From: Alkalispirochaeta americana
Lineage (GTDB): Bacteria > Spirochaetota > Spirochaetia > DSM-27196 > Alkalispirochaetaceae
Reading direction: 5' to 3'
DNA length: 64,000 nucleotides
Assembly: GCF_900156105.1 (NCBI RefSeq)
Contig: NZ_FTMS01000001.1
Coordinates: 1-64,000, forward strand
Shown piece after piece: positions 12,129-19,885 of this stretch (the first letter of the stretch is position 1; every line of letters begins with the position of its first letter). A program made the translations under genes and the position numbers. The notes beneath the pieces were generated by a model. It made no database searches and was not told the origin of the DNA. It was given only the letters and a program-made list of their open reading frames with translations.

Positions 12129-15100
12129 TCAGGCCTTTTGCTTCTTGCCCGGCAAAGGCGGAACGTCCACCTTAAAGAGCAGCGAATACATGGCCGGCAC
12201 GAATCCCAGGGTGAGAATCGTCGAGAAAATCAATCCGAAGATGATAGCGATGGTCATACTCTCCCAGAGCGGACTGCCCCCGAACCACAGCGGCAGAAGC
12301 CCGAAAATCGTGGTCAGCGTGGTGAGCAGGATCGGCCGGATTCGCCGTTGCGAGGCCGTGACAATCGCCTGGTAAGGCTCCAGCCCGTTCTCGTCGATCT
12401 CGATCTTGATCCTGTCCAGCAGAACCACGGCGTTCTTGATCACGATTCCCGCCAGAGAGATAACCCCCAGGAGCGTCATGACCCCGAAGATCGACCTGGT
12501 CACGATCAACCCGAAGACAACCCCGATCAGACCGAAGGGAATCGTCAGAAGGATGATGAAGGTCTTCCGCAAGGAGTTGAACTGGAGAATCAGCAGCAAC
12601 AGCATGATCAGCGCCGATATGGTGAGCTTGTCGAAGATAGCCTTGTTCGCCTCGGTGGTGGCGTCGGCCTCACCGGCGATCTCGTAGTGGTATCCCCCTG
12701 CCCAGCGTGTGCTCTCCTGGGCCAGCCACTCATCCAGATCGTTCGCAATGGCAATCGCGTTAAACCCTTCGTAGGCATCGGCTTGGATCGTCACCGTTCT
12801 GGCCAGATCCCGGCGCATGATTCGCGAGGGAGTCCACTCCAGGTTGAGGTTGGCGATCTGCTGAAGCGGCACGGACCGTCCCGTGGTGCTTGAATAGACC
12901 GAGACAGTCTCCAGCTTTGACACGTGTCCTTCGGGTGCCAGATCTGACCGCAGCGTGATGGGTATTACCTCGTCGGCACCGCGATACTCCGAGACCTGCA
13001 GACCCGTGAGCGCTGTCTGGAGCGAGATCGCCACTTCCTGACTTGTTATCCCCGCCGCCTTGGCCCGGGCCTCGTCGATATCCACAGCGAGTTGTTTTGT
13101 CCAGGGGCCCCAATCGTCGCGTACCCCGTAGATTCCCTCGATAGAGCGCATGCGATCGCGCACCAGATCGGCGTATTCGAAGATACGGTCCTGATCAGAT
13201 CCGGAGATACGAACCTCCACGGCCGCATCCACGGGAGGTCCCTGCACCAGGGGTCGGGCCCGCACCCGCACCTCGGGATGATGTTTCTCGAGATAGGCGT
13301 TGGTCTGGTTTATCACCTCGGGGATATGCCGCTGGTGAGTCAGGTTCACCACCATTACAGCGTATTCCGATCGGGGTGGTTCCGGGGTAAAGGGCAGATA
13401 AAAGCGCGGCGCATCGCCTCCGATGTAGCTGTGCCAGGTTTTAACCGAATCCTCCAGGGGCCCGCCGTAGAAGGCTTCTATCTCTTCCACCAGATCGCGG
13501 GTTCGTTCAAGCCGCGTTCCTGCGGCGTATTCCATCTCCACGGTGATCACCGCCCGGTCGTTGTTGGGAAAGAACTGACGCTCCACCAGCTGGAACGCAT
13601 AGAAAGCCCCCACAAGGCTCACCGTGAGAATCACGATGATCATCACCCGGTGGTGCAGGAAGAAGTGGAGAACCCCCGCGTACCACCGCTGGAAGGGGGT
13701 GTCGAACTCGTCGGCGCCCCCCTCGGGCTGGGCCTTCAGGTATCGCGCCGCCATCATGGGGGTCATGGTGAGCGCAAAAACCCAGGAGAGAAGAAGCGTA
13801 ATCGTGACTCCCCAGAAGACGGGGCTTGCGTACTCACTCAGGGAGTGTTCTGCCAGAAGGGCCGGCAGAAAAGCCGCACAGACGATGAGGGAGCTGATCA
13901 GAAGGGGCGAGCCCAGCTCCTTGGCCGAGCGGATCGCTGCCTCCCGGGGCGAGAGCCCTCCCGCAGAGAGGACCATGGTGGATTCAGCGATAACGATGGA
14001 GTTGTCCACCAGCATCCCCAGGGCGATGATCAGCGAGGCCAGCGAGACCTGGTCGATCCCGATCCCGAAGAGGAGAAAGACAAAGAACGTGGTGAGCATG
14101 GTCACCGGTACCAGGGAGGTCACCACCATGCCCATGCGGAAGCCGATGCTGATCAGCATGACCGCCATGATCGTCACCATGGCCTGAATGAGGTTGATTC
14201 CGAAGTTGTTCACCCGGTCCCGGACGTGATCGGCCTGGATCGCCACAAAATCGAGGTTAATCCCGATGGGCAATTCCTGCTGGTACCGGGCCACCACCTC
14301 TTTTACGTCATCGCCCAGAATATTGATGTTCCCCCCGTCGCGGAGGCTGACGCCCACGGCAACGGCCGGTTTTCCCGTGGTGTGCACGTGGGTCTGGGCC
14401 GGTTCCTGGTATCCCATATGGACGCGGGCAATATCCTGAAGAAAGAGCACCTCTCCCCGGGCAGGCAGGGGAATAAGAAGATTTTGCAACTCTTCCAGGG
14501 ACTCGAAGTTACCCGTGGGGCCCAGGATGATCCGCTCCCATTCCGTGAAGACCTCTCCACCGGGAAGGACGATGTTCTGGGCGCGAATCAGTTCTCTCAA
14601 TTGATAGGGAGTGATGCCGAGCTCTGCCAGGCGCTCGTCGGAGTAATCCACGTAGACACGGCGGTCCTGAACGCCGTGGAGGCTCACCGAGGCCACCTCG
14701 TCGGTGGCGATCACCCGCTCCCGAAGCTCCTTGGCGATCTCCTCCAGTTCCTCGTAGCTCACGCCCTCGCCGCTGACGGTGACGATCGTTCCGAAGACAT
14801 CGCCGAAGCGGTCGTTCACAATGGGGCCGATGATCTGCTCAGGCAGGGATCGCCGGGTGTTGTCCACGGAGATCCGAACCTCATCCCAGATCGGAGGCAT
14901 ATCGGTATACCGTTCCGAGACGTCCACGTAGATGATAGAGACGCCTGTCCGTGATTGCGACCGGACCCGTTCCACCTCGGGGATTTCCTGAATCGATTCT
15001 TCCAGAGGCTTTGATATGAGTTGTTCGATCCGCTGGGGGCTTGCCCCGGGATAATAGGTGACCACCACGGCGGTTCGCACGGTAAACCCGGGGTCCTCCG

Positions 15101-15203
15101 CCTTGGGTGCCTGAATATAGGAGATTACTCCCGCTACGGAAAGGCACAGGAGAATCGCCACGGTAAAGCGGTTTTTCTCAAAGGAGATTTTGGTAATATT
15201 CAC
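12129..15203 (-). CDS. RND-family efflux pump inner-membrane permease
   Basis: The 1024-residue length is typical of AcrB/MexB-like transporters. TM1 is at the N-terminus (FTVAILLCLSVAGVISYI), followed by porter-domain signatures (YYPGASPQRIEQLISKPLEE). The TM4 proton-relay segment GMLVDNSIV lies near residue 400, and the second TM cluster contains IKNAVVLLDRI near residue 930. The VDN form (instead of VDD) and the retained Lys are common in RND branches that are neither AcrB nor CusA. It forms a proton-driven trimer that takes substrate from the periplasm or membrane and hands it to the adaptor and the TolC protein encoded just upstream. Its start overlaps the adaptor stop by 4 bp, so translation is probably coupled. 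The substrate cannot be predicted. Confidence 0.93.
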   Translation of the reverse strand: MNITKISFEKNRFTVAILLCLSVAGVISYIQAPKAEDPGFTVRTAVVVTYYPGASPQRIEQLISKPLEESIQEIPEVERVRSQSRTGVSIIYVDVSERYTDMPPIWDEVRISVDNTRRSLPEQIIGPIVNDRFGDVFGTIVTVSGEGVSYEELEEIAKELRERVIATDEVASVSLHGVQDRRVYVDYSDERLAELGITPYQLRELIRAQNIVLPGGEVFTEWERIILGPTGNFESLEELQNLLIPLPARGEVLFLQDIARVHMGYQEPAQTHVHTTGKPAVAVGVSLRDGGNINILGDDVKEVVARYQQELPIGINLDFVAIQADHVRDRVNNFGINLIQAMVTIMAVMLISIGFRMGMVVTSLVPVTMLTTFFVFLLFGIGIDQVSLASLIIALGMLVDNSIVIAESTMVLSAGGLSPREAAIRSAKELGSPLLISSLIVCAAFLPALLAEHSLSEYASPVFWGVTITLLLSWVFALTMTPMMAARYLKAQPEGGADEFDTPFQRWYAGVLHFFLHHRVMIIVILTVSLVGAFYAFQLVERQFFPNNDRAVITVEMEYAAGTRLERTRDLVEEIEAFYGGPLEDSVKTWHSYIGGDAPRFYLPFTPEPPRSEYAVMVVNLTHQRHIPEVINQTNAYLEKHHPEVRVRARPLVQGPPVDAAVEVRISGSDQDRIFEYADLVRDRMRSIEGIYGVRDDWGPWTKQLAVDIDEARAKAAGITSQEVAISLQTALTGLQVSEYRGADEVIPITLRSDLAPEGHVSKLETVSVYSSTTGRSVPLQQIANLNLEWTPSRIMRRDLARTVTIQADAYEGFNAIAIANDLDEWLAQESTRWAGGYHYEIAGEADATTEANKAIFDKLTISALIMLLLLILQFNSLRKTFIILLTIPFGLIGVVFGLIVTRSIFGVMTLLGVISLAGIVIKNAVVLLDRIKIEIDENGLEPYQAIVTASQRRIRPILLTTLTTIFGLLPLWFGGSPLWESMTIAIIFGLIFSTILTLGFVPAMYSLLFKVDVPPLPGKKQKA

Positions 15204-16336
15204 CGGGTTCCTCCCTCCATCTCGGGCAGGATGCGCACCAGCATATCCTCCGAGAGATGATTCAGCCCCAGAGTTACCACGCGCTGACCCGATTCGACTC
15301 CCTCCAGTATTTCAACCTGGTCCTGGAGCAGTCGGCCGATAGCGATGGGGCTGCGTTTCAGGCGGGCCAGGTCCACTCCGTTTTCGTCCTGCTCGTCGGT
15401 GGGCTCGATCACGTAGAGAAAGTGTCCGTCCCGGTCCTGGGCAACGGCAGAGCTGGGTACGCGCACGGCAGCGCCCTCCCACTGGATGGCCTGGGGAAAC
15501 TGAACCCGCGAGACCATGCCTGCCCGCATCCATTCCGGGGCCTGGTGAAGCCGAACCGTCACGGGGAAGGTTCCCGCTCCGGCAGCAGCACCCCCGCCCA
15601 CGCCTGAAACCGCTCCGGTGAGGACCTCTCCGGGGTAGGCCGAGACGATCACTTCGGCGGGATTGCCCGTGGAAAGGGAGGCCACCACCGAGTCGGGAAC
15701 GGAAAGGGTCACCTCCCAGCGGTCCTGGGAGACGATCATCACAATGGGGTGTCCCACGGCGATGTTCTCGCCGGCGTTTGCCACCCGGGCCGAAACACGG
15801 CCGCTGAAGGGTGAGGTTACCCGGGCGTAGCTCAGCTGGAGATCAGCCAGTTCAAGCTGCCTCTGGGCGCCGTTCACCGCTGCTTCGGCCGATTCTGCCG
15901 TGGCCCGGGCCGAGTCGTAGTCCTGGCGGCTGGCCAGTTCCTGCTGGTAGAGGTTGCGTACCCGGTTGTAGGTGGCTCGGGCTGCCGAGGCCTGGGCCTG
16001 GGCACCTGTGAGTTGCGTTGCCGCGGCATCGCGCTGGAGCTGGAGCGGTTCAGGATCGATCCGGGCAATCAGATCACCCACCTGGACATCGTCTCCCACG
16101 TCTACCAGGATTTCCTGGATCATTCCGGCCACCTTGGGACTCACCCGGGCCTCGCTGCCCGAGCGGGTGCGCCCGACAAAACTGCGGGCCTGGGTCTCAT
16201 GGGCATCCACTACATACTGCCACCGCACGGGTCGGGGAGTTTCGGTAATATCGTTGCCGTTTCCGCTGCACCCGGCCAGTGTGAGCGCCAGGGCCAGGGG
16301 AACAGCGAATACAGTGAGGAGGGAAAACTTCTTCAT
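15200..16336 (-). CDS. RND efflux periplasmic adaptor (membrane fusion protein), lipoprotein
   Basis: The 378-residue product has a lipoprotein signal (LALTLAGCSGNGN, Cys ~res 23). Next come the lipoyl/barrel-sandwich half-motifs (VSPKVAGMIQEILVDVGDDV and VTSPFSGRVSARVANAGENI), separated by an alpha-helical hairpin at res ~95-160. A beta-barrel and membrane-proximal domain end the protein. It links the RND permease to the outer-membrane channel. It overlaps both neighbours by 4 bp, as the middle gene of a three-gene operon. Confidence 0.92.
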   Translation of the reverse strand: MKKFSLLTVFAVPLALALTLAGCSGNGNDITETPRPVRWQYVVDAHETQARSFVGRTRSGSEARVSPKVAGMIQEILVDVGDDVQVGDLIARIDPEPLQLQRDAAATQLTGAQAQASAARATYNRVRNLYQQELASRQDYDSARATAESAEAAVNGAQRQLELADLQLSYARVTSPFSGRVSARVANAGENIAVGHPIVMIVSQDRWEVTLSVPDSVVASLSTGNPAEVIVSAYPGEVLTGAVSGVGGGAAAGAGTFPVTVRLHQAPEWMRAGMVSRVQFPQAIQWEGAAVRVPSSAVAQDRDGHFLYVIEPTDEQDENGVDLARLKRSPIAIGRLLQDQVEILEGVESGQRVVTLGLNHLSEDMLVRILPEMEGGTR

Positions 16337-18750
16337 CGGGATTCTCCTTGTGAAATGGTTTCAAGCAGGGATCTGATCTCGGCTTCTCGTGCCGGAAGGT
16401 GTATCGCGTCGGTTGCACCCAACGCCCTGAGCAGGCGGGTGAACTCCCGCAGATATTCGTAGGTTGCGTCCTGCACCAGCTGTCCTGCTGCGCTGGCCCG
16501 GTTCTGGGTGTCCACCAGCTCGGCCGCCGAGGCAACGCCGGCGTCGTAGGCGCGGGTTGCCAGGGTGAGGGCCTCGGAGGCAGCCTCGTTGGCCTCCCGG
16601 GCGTGGAGCATCGATTCTGCCACGGCGATGGTCCGTACAAAGGCCGAGCGGAGGCGCTGTTCGATCTGGCGGCTCACCGATTCGGTCTCCTTCACCAGTT
16701 CCTCCAGCTCGGCGTCTGTTCTGGCCAGGCTGGCCCGCCTCTGGCCTCCCGAGTAGAGGGGCAGCGAGGCCTGGATTCCTATGGACCAGGAGGTGTCGCC
16801 GGGCATATCAAGGTTGTTTAGCAATCCGGCTGCCAAGGGGTCTGATGGCGTGCCGGGATCCTTCCCGCCCGACCAGTACTCGTGCTCCACCTGGCCCACC
16901 ATGGCCACCGTGGGGGACCAGAAAGAACGGCTTCGCATCTGTCGCTCCCGTGTCCTGGCCGCGATAGCCTGGTTCAGAGCCTGAACCTCGCTGGAAGAAT
17001 CAAAGGAGAAGCGAACGAGATCCTCCTCCAGGCGCTGGAGCGCTCCCAGGTCAGTGACCTCAAAGAAAAGTGCTCCTGCGGGAAGCACCTGGAGAGGATC
17101 CTCCAGGCCCCGTTCCCGGGGGTGCAGGTCTGTTCGCTGCGGCCGGTTCAGCAGGCGGTTTACCTGCATCTGGGCCTGTTGCTCCAGAGAGAGGGCGTCG
17201 GTAAGCTTGCGCCGGGCCAGAGCCAGCTCACTGCGGAAGCGGTAGACGTCATCGGGACCTGCCGCGCCCACCTGGCGGCGGGTCTGGGCCCGGTCCAGGT
17301 GAAACTGGAGCTGATCCACATCGTTCTGGTGAAGCTCCACCAGAGCCTGGGCACGCAGGAGGTCAAAATACGCCAGGGAGACCGCCTCGGCCGTATCCTG
17401 ACGAAACCGCTCGTACTGAAAATCCTGGCTCGAAGAGATCAGCTCCTGGATCTGCAGGTTTGCCCAGGCAGGCTCGCTCCAGAGAACCTGCTGAAATGAG
17501 AGAGCTCCCACAGCAGAGAACTGGTCGGGAAAGAAAAGGCTCTCTGCCCGATCCTCGTCGAGAATGCGAAAGGTAGTAGAGGCGTTCACCTGGGGCAGCA
17601 GGTTGGACCGGGCACCAGCGACGTTGGCATCGCCTGTGGCGAGCCCCGCTTTCCGGGCCGCCAGGTCCAGGTTGTGGTCCAGGGCCGTCTCCACCGCCTC
17701 CTGGAGATTGATCCCCTCAAAACGATCTTCCCGCTGGACAAAGCGGGCCTGGAGCAGAGCTTCCCGCCGGGGAGAAACCCCGGCCCGGCGCAGGGCGTCC
17801 CGATCCAGAAGAAGCATGCCCCGGGCACGCAGGCTCTGGACCCTGCCCAGGCTGGCTCCCCGGTTGATCACCTCCCGGTATTCCGTGGCGGCCCTGGTGG
17901 CAGCGATATCCTGGACGTACTCGCGCAGAACTCCCACGGTAGCCACCTCGTGGGGGCTTCTGCCCAGGGCTGCAAAGGTGGGTATTCCCCGGGTGTGGAG
18001 GCTTCCCATAAGCGACCGGGCCTGGTCTGCCGGAGCATGGGGAAAGGGCAGCACGTAGGCGGCGCTCCCGGGAGCCAGGAGGACCTGGTCAGGGTCAATG
18101 TGTGTCTCGATCGGGACAATCTCTGCCGAGGGATGGTCCAGGCCCTGGAGGGTTTCGGAAAGATTGTCCAGAAGCACCATGTACGGGGCAGGCACCAGAA
18201 TGGAGACATGGTCCACCGGAAAGAGCCGGGCGATGCGGGCCACATCCTCCTGAACACGCAGGGGAAGTTCCACGGCGATGATTCCCGGCGAGAGAGCTCT
18301 GTAGTCGGCCCTGGTGGTGCCACGTACCGCCTGGGGCAATACAAAGGGAGCAACCACCGGCACCTGCCTGGCGGGATTATCCTCTTCCAGATTGATCGCC
18401 GCCTCTCCGGCCAGGACCCCCAGAACGAAAATGATGTCCAGATCCTCCGAGGCTCCCCTCAGATCGGAGATCGTCCGGGTTGCTTCCTCAACGGTCCAGT
18501 CTCCGGTATGGCGGTGATCGGGAGAAACCTCCACGGGCCGGCGCACCGCCGCAGAGAAGGATTCAATAAATCGTTTTTCCAGATCCGGGTTTTCTTCCCA
18601 GGGGCCGTCGAAGACCACGCCGGCCCGGATTGTCTCCGGCATGGCCTCGGCCGCTTGTGCCGAGAGGCTCTCCCCGGCGGCGAACAAGCCCGCGGCCAGG
18701 ATCAGGGCCACACCCCACAGGCGGGGCGCACGTAATAGGTTCCATTTCAT
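16333..18750 (-). CDS. TolC-family outer-membrane efflux protein fused to an N-terminal substrate-binding-protein-like domain
   Basis: At 805 residues it is nearly twice a normal TolC (~430-490). A signal peptide covers ~res 1-35. Residues ~40-330 resemble a two-lobed periplasmic binding protein of the ABC-substrate-binding/LivJ-like fold (TIRAGVVFDGPWEEN, LDIIFVLGVLAGEAAI, VDHVSILVPAPYMVLLDNL, GIPTFAALGRSPHEVATVG). Residues ~350-800 are a duplicated outer-membrane efflux domain (INLQEAVETALDHNLDLAARKAGL, later IGIQASLPLYSGGQRRASLARTDAEL). It is the first gene of the operon. A long leader carries an inverted repeat, and a good ribosome site (GAAGGAG) precedes the ATG. I infer that the extra domain senses or delivers cargo to the channel; this is untested. 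Confidence 0.85.
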   Translation of the reverse strand: MKWNLLRAPRLWGVALILAAGLFAAGESLSAQAAEAMPETIRAGVVFDGPWEENPDLEKRFIESFSAAVRRPVEVSPDHRHTGDWTVEEATRTISDLRGASEDLDIIFVLGVLAGEAAINLEEDNPARQVPVVAPFVLPQAVRGTTRADYRALSPGIIAVELPLRVQEDVARIARLFPVDHVSILVPAPYMVLLDNLSETLQGLDHPSAEIVPIETHIDPDQVLLAPGSAAYVLPFPHAPADQARSLMGSLHTRGIPTFAALGRSPHEVATVGVLREYVQDIAATRAATEYREVINRGASLGRVQSLRARGMLLLDRDALRRAGVSPRREALLQARFVQREDRFEGINLQEAVETALDHNLDLAARKAGLATGDANVAGARSNLLPQVNASTTFRILDEDRAESLFFPDQFSAVGALSFQQVLWSEPAWANLQIQELISSSQDFQYERFRQDTAEAVSLAYFDLLRAQALVELHQNDVDQLQFHLDRAQTRRQVGAAGPDDVYRFRSELALARRKLTDALSLEQQAQMQVNRLLNRPQRTDLHPRERGLEDPLQVLPAGALFFEVTDLGALQRLEEDLVRFSFDSSSEVQALNQAIAARTRERQMRSRSFWSPTVAMVGQVEHEYWSGGKDPGTPSDPLAAGLLNNLDMPGDTSWSIGIQASLPLYSGGQRRASLARTDAELEELVKETESVSRQIEQRLRSAFVRTIAVAESMLHAREANEAASEALTLATRAYDAGVASAAELVDTQNRASAAGQLVQDATYEYLREFTRLLRALGATDAIHLPAREAEIRSLLETISQGESR

Positions 18751-18826
18751 CCTGCTACTCCTTCGTTATGACGCAAACGCGTGAGACCTGAAGATACCCC
18801 CCGGGAGGGGAGCGTTTCTATCGGCG

Positions 18827-18865
18827 GTTTTACGTATTTTCCCCGGAATTCAATATACGTAAAAC
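18827..18865. promoter_or_regulatory. Perfect 11-bp inverted repeat upstream of the efflux operon (candidate operator)
   Basis: GTTTTACGTAT (18827-18837) is followed after 17 nt by its exact complement ATACGTAAAAC (18855-18865). Each arm contains the palindrome TACGTA, and the arm centres are 28 bp apart. The AT-rich element sits in the 205-bp gap between the luxR-type gene and the TolC gene. This fits a dimeric regulator site at the operon promoter. It has no terminator-like tail. Confidence 0.6.
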
Positions 18866-18914
18866 TACGGATTTCTTCAAAAACCTCCCCAGGGGCGCGA
18901 CCGCCGGGGAAAAA

Positions 18915-18966
18915 CACCAGGAAAGACCACCAGGAAAGACCACCAGGAAGGACCATCAGGAAGGAC
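18915..18966. repeat. Four tandem copies of a 13-bp unit across the luxR-type gene's stop codon
   Basis: CACCAGGAAAGAC occurs at 18915 and 18928, CACCAGGAAGGAC at 18941, and CATCAGGAAGGAC at 18954. The minus-strand stop codon (TCA, 18956-18958) lies in the last unit. Because 13 is not a multiple of 3, copy-number change would shift the frame at the C-terminal end. Confidence 0.85.
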
Positions 18967-19885
18967 GGGAGAGAAGCCGGAAAAGCTCGTAGCGGGAACG
19001 GACGCCGCATTTCTTGAAGGTATTCGCCACGTGGGTGTCCACGGTCCGAACGGCGATTCCCAGCTCCTGGGCGATAGCCGCGTTGGTCTTTCCCTCAAAG
19101 AGGTGTTCCAGAATCTCCCGCTCCCGTTTTGTCAGGCCGAAGGTCTCCACAAAGGTCCGGGTCGGCTTTATCTGGGAGTGGGCGGCGCTCTCTTCCCGGA
19201 GCGTGCGGATCACCGCAGCCAGAAGAAGCACGTTGGCACCGATATAGCCCGCCACAAAGATCAGGTCGGCCCGCAAGACCCGAACCTCGGGAAAGGCCAC
19301 GCTGGCAATGAGCCAGTTGGGGATATGGGCCATGGCCAAAAAGGCGAAGGCCGCCCCGAATCCCCGGAAGAACTGTTGCCAGGGCGATTCGGGGAGCCTG
19401 CTTGCGCAGGAAAAGGATCCCAGGGCCACCAGCACGGCAAAGACCGCCAGAGCCATGTGAAGAAAGAACGAGGCCCAGAGCTGGATCCCCGGCACATTCA
19501 GGGCCAGGGGGGACCATTGGAGAAGTGTCACAAAAAACCAGAGCCCCGTCACAACCAGGGCCGTGGCACGCATCACCCGCACCCTGCGGCGCACCCCGGG
19601 CCAGCGGAGAAAGCGTGTCACAAAGCGGATCTGGGCAGCCAGGGTGGCTGCTGCGGCAAGACCAAAGAGCAGATCGCTCAGCACCGTGGGTATCCGGTCC
19701 ACCACCGCCCAGTAGGAGGCCGAAAAGGAAACGGCCGTGATACACAAGTAGCCGGCCAGAATGTTGCGGGTGTATTTCCCCTCGGACTGGGGCGTTACCT
19801 GCCCCAGGATAACCACCGTGAGGAGAAGCCCGAAACCGGCAAAGAGCGCTGCCAGATTGAGGAAGAACCAGATCTCGTTAAGCAT
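18956..19885 (-). CDS. Membrane-anchored LuxR-type transcriptional regulator
   Basis: The 309-residue protein has about seven hydrophobic helices over res ~1-225 (for example FFLNLAALFAGFGLLLTVVIL). A LuxR/FixJ-type HTH follows at ~res 245-305 (GLTKREREILEHLFEGKTNAAIAQELGIAVRTVDTHV...). No receiver or autoinducer-binding domain is visible. Sensing is therefore probably in the membrane, as in other 7TM-HTH regulators. It lies directly upstream of the efflux operon on the same strand, with a candidate operator between, so local control of efflux is likely. A sigma-70-like promoter lies just upstream. Confidence 0.85.
   Translation of the reverse strand: MLNEIWFFLNLAALFAGFGLLLTVVILGQVTPQSEGKYTRNILAGYLCITAVSFSASYWAVVDRIPTVLSDLLFGLAAAATLAAQIRFVTRFLRWPGVRRRVRVMRATALVVTGLWFFVTLLQWSPLALNVPGIQLWASFFLHMALAVFAVLVALGSFSCASRLPESPWQQFFRGFGAAFAFLAMAHIPNWLIASVAFPEVRVLRADLIFVAGYIGANVLLLAAVIRTLREESAAHSQIKPTRTFVETFGLTKREREILEHLFEGKTNAAIAQELGIAVRTVDTHVANTFKKCGVRSRYELFRLLSRPS

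Follow-up and report, generated by a model that had tools for sequence, protein, structure and literature searches.

The 64-kb window analysed here (64,000 nucleotides), which is the start of contig 1 of the 3.3-Mb genome of Alkalispirochaeta americana, encodes on its minus strand a resistance-nodulation-division (RND) permease, a periplasmic adaptor, a TolC-family outer-membrane factor with an N-terminal periplasmic-binding-protein (PBP) domain, and a seven-transmembrane (7-TM) regulator of the LuxR type (Table 1). The coordinates, strands and lengths given for these four genes in an earlier note on this DNA agree with the listing of open reading frames (ORFs). At both junctions between tolC, adaptor and permease the start and stop codons share a 4-nt overlap, and these three genes are therefore probably transcribed together; luxR lies 205 bp upstream of tolC on the same strand. 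With an ACR_tran permease, a HlyD-type adaptor and an OEP channel encoded together, the locus has the composition of an RND tripartite pump, and the adaptor is probably a lipoprotein because it carries the lipobox LAGC. The permease belongs to no named HAE-1 family of NCBIfam, its best match being RND_permease_2 at 478 bits against a cut-off of 1250. An Asp pair (LVDD) is expected in transmembrane segment (TM) 4 of AcrB-type pumps. The permeases of operons with a fused TolC (that of the window and those at loci L012, L013, L042, L061 and L062) read LVDN at this position, with a single acidic residue; LVDN is also found in other RND proteins, at L043 and L046.

Table 1. Features of the efflux locus in the window (positions in the 64-kb window).
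Feature	Position	Strand	Basis and remarks
RND permease (ACR_tran)	12129..15203	-	Pfam ACR_tran, E 6.5e-160; TM4 motif LVDN (single Asp), TM10 Lys retained
Periplasmic adaptor (HlyD/RND_mfp)	15200..16336	-	TIGR01730, 243.5 bits, over the cut-off; lipobox LAGC
TolC-family outer-membrane factor with N-terminal PBP domain, 805 aa	16333..18750	-	ORF, Pfam, relatives, length comparison
TolC channel, two OEP repeats from residue 349	16333..17706	-	OEP, E 1.5e-39; PDB sequence matches 7ng8/TolC/OprM
ABC_sub_bind-like PBP domain, TolC residues 35-338	17737..18648	-	Predicted model, Foldseek, hhalign to the Sulfuricurvum domain, PF04392 in Sulfuricurvum
Box 2, AAAATACGTAAAACCGCCGATAG; in relatives AAAATACGTAGAT...CGAT(A/G)G	18818..18840	-	Comparison with relatives
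Inverted repeat of the earlier note, arms GTTTTACGTAT (18827-18837) and ATACGTAAAAC (18855-18865), spacer 17	18827..18865		
Best sigma70-like promoter match, TTGAAG-17-TATATT	18852..18880	-	Two found in the region against a shuffle mean of 0.2
Box 1, CGTAGTTTTACG, inverted repeat CGTA-N4-TACG	18858..18869	-	Comparison with relatives
7-TM membrane-anchored LuxR/GerE-type regulator, 309 aa	18956..19885	-	GerE, E 1.3e-17; TM1-7 at about residues 9-226; helix-turn-helix (HTH) at 251-304

Residues 35-338 of TolC were modelled with AlphaFold2 on five sequences (pLDDT 77, pTM 0.80). The predicted model has the two-lobe class I PBP fold of the ABC_sub_bind family: the first five ranks of a Foldseek search against the PDB are ABC_sub_bind solute-binding proteins (3LFT, 3LKV and 6HNI/6HNJ, the latter being CD0873; E 9.1e-13 to 1.4e-10, TM-scores 0.60-0.64), and generic class I PBPs follow. 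The earlier note had described a PBP-like domain ahead of a duplicated channel domain and had called for a structure prediction and a fold search; both have now been run, and they bear out the PBP fold, as the two OEP repeats found by Pfam bear out the duplication. Searches of Pfam, NCBIfam and PDB sequences with the window domain gave no true match, and neither this domain nor its spirochaete relatives reach the Pfam cut-off for PF04392; matches to protein A were rejected as a repeat artefact. An 803-residue protein encoded on a Sulfuricurvum plasmid provides a bridge, as it matches PF04392 at E 9.8e-10 (38.6 bits against a cut-off of 25.9) and continues into two OEP repeats. The initial sequence match to this plasmid had an E value of only 0.9, and its relevance was recognized from its annotation; its N-terminal domain aligns with the spirochaete profile by hhalign at E 1.4e-13 over 291 columns. 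Compared directly with spirochaete ABC_sub_bind proteins, the spirochaete domain aligns collinearly at a non-significant E of 0.36, so the link to this family depends on the fold and on the Sulfuricurvum bridge. Given the fold ranking, the PF04392 match and the hhalign value, the N-terminal domain is best read as a predicted, divergent ABC_sub_bind PBP.

The window TolC is 90% identical to that of the sister species, A. alkalica DSM 8900. Fused relatives also occur in genomes G418, G411 and G416 of the same order and in G376, from another family. The fused proteins are length outliers, with open frames of 730-912 aa where complete against mostly 420-600 aa for ordinary paralogues (the G416 gene is cut by a contig end), and a single fused TolC stands alongside ordinary TolCs in the genomes and records examined. 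In a tree built from the channel only, the eight fused rows (the window, A. alkalica, G418, G411, G376, Sulfuricurvum and two from Cetobacterium) fall on one branch with support 98/99; judged from these sequences, the fused channels in the sample share one origin. The clade spans three phyla (Spirochaetota, Campylobacterota and Fusobacteriota), and its members serve different engines, either RND or ABC-2 pumps. A TetR gene lies downstream of the pump in G376. In Sulfuricurvum a TetR gene lies upstream and the fused TolC is accompanied by RbbA-type ABC-2 transport genes, and the Cetobacterium protein goes with an RND pump and has two-component genes nearby; the Cetobacterium domain is tied to the spirochaete domain by the channel tree and by a weak hhalign match to Sulfuricurvum (E 2.4e-4). 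On the Sulfuricurvum plasmid (L060, 6349-14155) the fusion, in an operon with TetR, HlyD and the RbbA-type ABC-2 exporter, is annotated merely as 'ABC transporter substrate binding protein'. A literature search restricted to open-licence papers found no description of TolC-PBP fusions or of 7-TM LuxR efflux regulators.

The regulator is predicted from hydropathy and the positive-inside charge pattern to have seven TM segments in an N-out/C-in orientation. Seven were found in all six members examined, and not the 10-12 of the LuxR proteins of Coriobacteriia. An N-terminal multi-TM domain followed by a C-terminal GerE HTH is the layout of a one-component TM-LuxR, which upholds the earlier description of a 7TM-HTH regulator directly upstream on the same strand. 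Its model (pLDDT 81) found no fold match at E <= 0.001, the best being 0.017, and identification of the 7-TM domain as a rhodopsin or G-protein-coupled receptor was dropped for want of a significant structural match. Across 46 genomes of the order, a close orthologue of the regulator and a fused TolC occur in the same five (G000, G334, G418, G411 and G416), patchily within three genera. luxR precedes tolC in four of these; in G416 the two are not adjacent, with other DNA coming after luxR and a different gene, in divergent orientation, lying in front of tolC. G418 and G411 have the same gene order, luxR-tolC-adaptor-RND, with 35-70% identity but without the ROK and UvrD flanks, and the neighbourhood survey suggested in the earlier note accordingly finds other genera that retain both the PBP domain and the luxR neighbour. 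In G418 (L012, 8584-11076) and G416 (L041, 4407-7035), the neighbours of luxR are a Tat-signal aldo/keto-reductase-like gene and a gene for a large, MalT-like LuxR regulator, the pump genes of G416 lying elsewhere.

More distant 7TM-LuxR proteins keep other company. They adjoin ordinary adaptor-RND pairs at L043 and L046, an adaptor at a contig end at L045 and a different membrane protein at L048, L108 and L109; one lies near an RND gene at L049, and at L044 and L047 neither a pump nor that membrane protein is adjacent. Because these members adjoin other pumps or non-pump genes, the family is a general sensor, tied to the fused TolC within this order alone. At L048 (1-668), L108 (7029-8978) and L109 (9189-10136) the unrelated partner directly follows the regulator and is a conserved membrane protein starting RPxPFFGIDLxLTWxPLW. 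A TATCCGGAGaaTTCCGTAatctgcTATAGT-like sequence is found just before the luxR start at L043 (3580-3640), L045, L046, L047 and L049; in it an inverted repeat, CGGA-N4-TCCG, precedes a -10-like hexamer by a few bases, and the whole looks like an autoregulatory site with the half-site format of box 1.

Four genomes share the bipartite pattern CGTAGTTNTAC ... AATACGTA, which lies in the luxR-tolC interval except in G416, where the boxes are kept in front of tolC despite luxR lying elsewhere. A. alkalica shares the 13-mer AAAATACGTAGAT with two genomes from a different family, and 0 of 300 shuffles gave such sharing. As the bipartite pattern was derived from those four genomes, the independent evidence is its uniqueness and its absence elsewhere: it occurs once per genome in four of the five genomes with the module and is missing from the remaining 42 genomes of the order, and reversed-pattern controls gave 0. 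This restriction to single copies in module genomes strengthens the regulatory link. The CGTA cores are 35 bp apart in Alkalispirochaeta and 46 bp apart in G418 and G416, a difference of one helical turn, which is what a requirement for two bound dimers to lie on one face of the helix would predict. Box 1 lies inside the spacer of the best promoter match, the one promoter of consensus type in the window, which is also readable in the sister species and not in G418 or G416. The perfect inverted repeat reported in the earlier note is present and covers one half of box 1 and one half of box 2, but its perfection is peculiar to the window species (the second arm reads ATACGTAGATC in the sister species) and only the CGTA box pair is conserved; the repeat was dropped as an operator for this reason. 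Separately, four tandem 13-bp copies (CACCAGGAAAGAC) extend over the luxR 3' end and the intergenic region at 18899-18966, and none were seen in A. alkalica. The dedicated regulator-exporter module that the earlier note had envisaged stands within this order, through co-inheritance and the conserved boxes, but not beyond it, where the fused TolC lies beside TetR or two-component genes and 7TM-LuxR beside other genes. The module is real but assembled locally.

Taken together, the locus probably encodes a tripartite RND exporter that has a solute-binding domain fused to its outer channel and is controlled by a 7-TM one-component LuxR-type regulator. The 7-TM domain would sense a membrane-soluble or periplasmic compound, and the cytoplasmic HTH would act at the paired boxes to set transcription of tolC, adaptor and permease. 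In OprM the equatorial domain supplies the N-terminal anchor, and loops of this domain help to recruit the adaptor (PMC8277102); the three PBP domains per trimer would thus form a periplasmic collar level with the channel's equatorial belt, close to the site of adaptor docking. There they may bind a small ligand that is either cargo, captured locally, or a gate of duct assembly or opening. That the regulator and the PBP domain share one ligand, as the earlier note proposed, is speculative.

Several observations weigh against this reading, and the competing explanations draw on them. It is rather unlikely that the PBP domain plays a structural part in the outer-membrane factor, docking the adaptor as a collar or spacing the channel, instead of sensing a ligand. 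It would sit where equatorial-domain elements touch adaptors (PMC8277102); it is far less conserved than the channel (35% against 60% in G418), and in Cetobacterium the N-terminal domain lacks some 60 residues, the alignment showing a gap in the second lobe. Given this shortening and the low conservation, the domain may be structural in some lineages. The class proteins SP1069 (3LFT), VC_1101 (3LKV) and CD0873 (6HNI) bind Trp, Phe and Tyr (PMC6816091), and a low-confidence hhalign alignment shows a different sequence here at the GT and TDP loops of canonical ABC_sub_bind proteins, so that amino-acid binding, or any ligand identity, is not to be carried over. However, the domain is kept at full length in four spirochaete genera and Sulfuricurvum, and its conservation is concentrated at the C-terminal, cleft-side ends of strands, where PBPs line the cleft (0.53 against 0.46 for the rest, with 1 of 303 circular shifts as high, in a test picked post hoc after the alignment had been viewed). 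Six sequences all carry the DG of a DGP motif that follows strand 1. Conservation at the cleft-side strand ends favours ligand binding over pure scaffolding, although for Cetobacterium the shortening points the other way.

That the box pair is recognized by another regulator, such as an unlinked TetR or MarR protein or a global factor, seems rather improbable. It would account for G416, where luxR and tolC are non-adjacent, and for G411, where luxR is adjacent to tolC and there is no intergenic gap for the boxes. Yet none of the 41 genomes of the order without the close luxR has the pattern, and a 12-bp inverted repeat such as box 1 suits a dimer of GerE-type HTH domains. The position of box 1 within the promoter spacer fits a repressor or an activator alike, and the TM-LuxRs of Eggerthella lenta activate (PMC9734109). 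An ordinary multidrug RND pump, with the PBP domain as a once-acquired passenger and the adjacent LuxR a member of the general 7-TM family with no special link, is very unlikely: fused TolCs do occur without a close LuxR (G376, Sulfuricurvum and Cetobacterium) and related 7TM-LuxRs without a fused TolC, but such a pump leaves unexplained the identical distribution in five of the 46 genomes and the conserved paired box.

An exporter with capture or gating at the duct that depends on ligand, its expression set by the 7-TM regulator, is the preferred reading of the locus. The fused-channel family is broader than the regulator-exporter module, and it is mainly in this family that the novelty lies. 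A wider proposal, tentative and on balance doubtful, is that these proteins represent a widespread and apparently undescribed exporter family, RND or ABC-2, in which the channel PBP captures cargo in the periplasm or gates the duct when ligand is bound and which in Alkalispirochaeta and its relatives is wired to a 7-TM LuxR sensing the same compound. Outer-membrane factors are regarded as passive ducts blind to substrate, selectivity being assigned to the permease and adaptor. A channel with a solute-binding domain of its own, retained in one lineage over three phyla with two kinds of engine, would imply an exit duct able to recognize a ligand. The module would also offer a small self-contained system for one-component 7-TM transcription factors, and its soluble PBP domain could be used as bait for their ligands.

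The locus resembles tripartite RND systems with a TolC/OprM-type factor in that a single operon encodes permease, adaptor and channel, and in its OEP repeats and ACR_tran permease; it differs in the N-terminal PBP of its channel, in a permease that falls far below every NCBIfam HAE cut-off and in LVDN in place of LVDD. The PBP domain shares the two-lobe fold of the ABC_sub_bind lipoproteins SP1069, VC_1101 and CD0873, which supply its five best structural matches, and its Sulfuricurvum relative exceeds the Pfam cut-off; here, however, the domain is fused to an outer-membrane channel in an operon without importer genes, and the window domain lies below all Pfam models. WP_041667226.1 of Sulfuricurvum kujiense (pSULKU01) and the 'TolC family protein' WP_330112282.1 of Cetobacterium somerae belong to the same fused-channel clade as the window protein, from which they differ in their TetR or two-component neighbours, in the RbbA-type ABC-2 engine of the former and in the shortened N-terminal domain of the latter. 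CusF-CusCBA likewise associates a periplasmic binder with an RND exporter, but CusF is a separate, unfused small metallochaperone and no PBP (PMC8277102). In E. lenta the 12-TM LuxRs DadR, HcdR and CadR switch on metabolic genes in response to specific substrates (PMC9734109). The window regulator is like these 10-12-TM Coriobacteriia LuxRs in layout, with a membrane domain, a C-terminal GerE HTH and a position adjoining the genes that it would control, whereas it has seven TM helices and its neighbour is a transporter rather than an enzyme.

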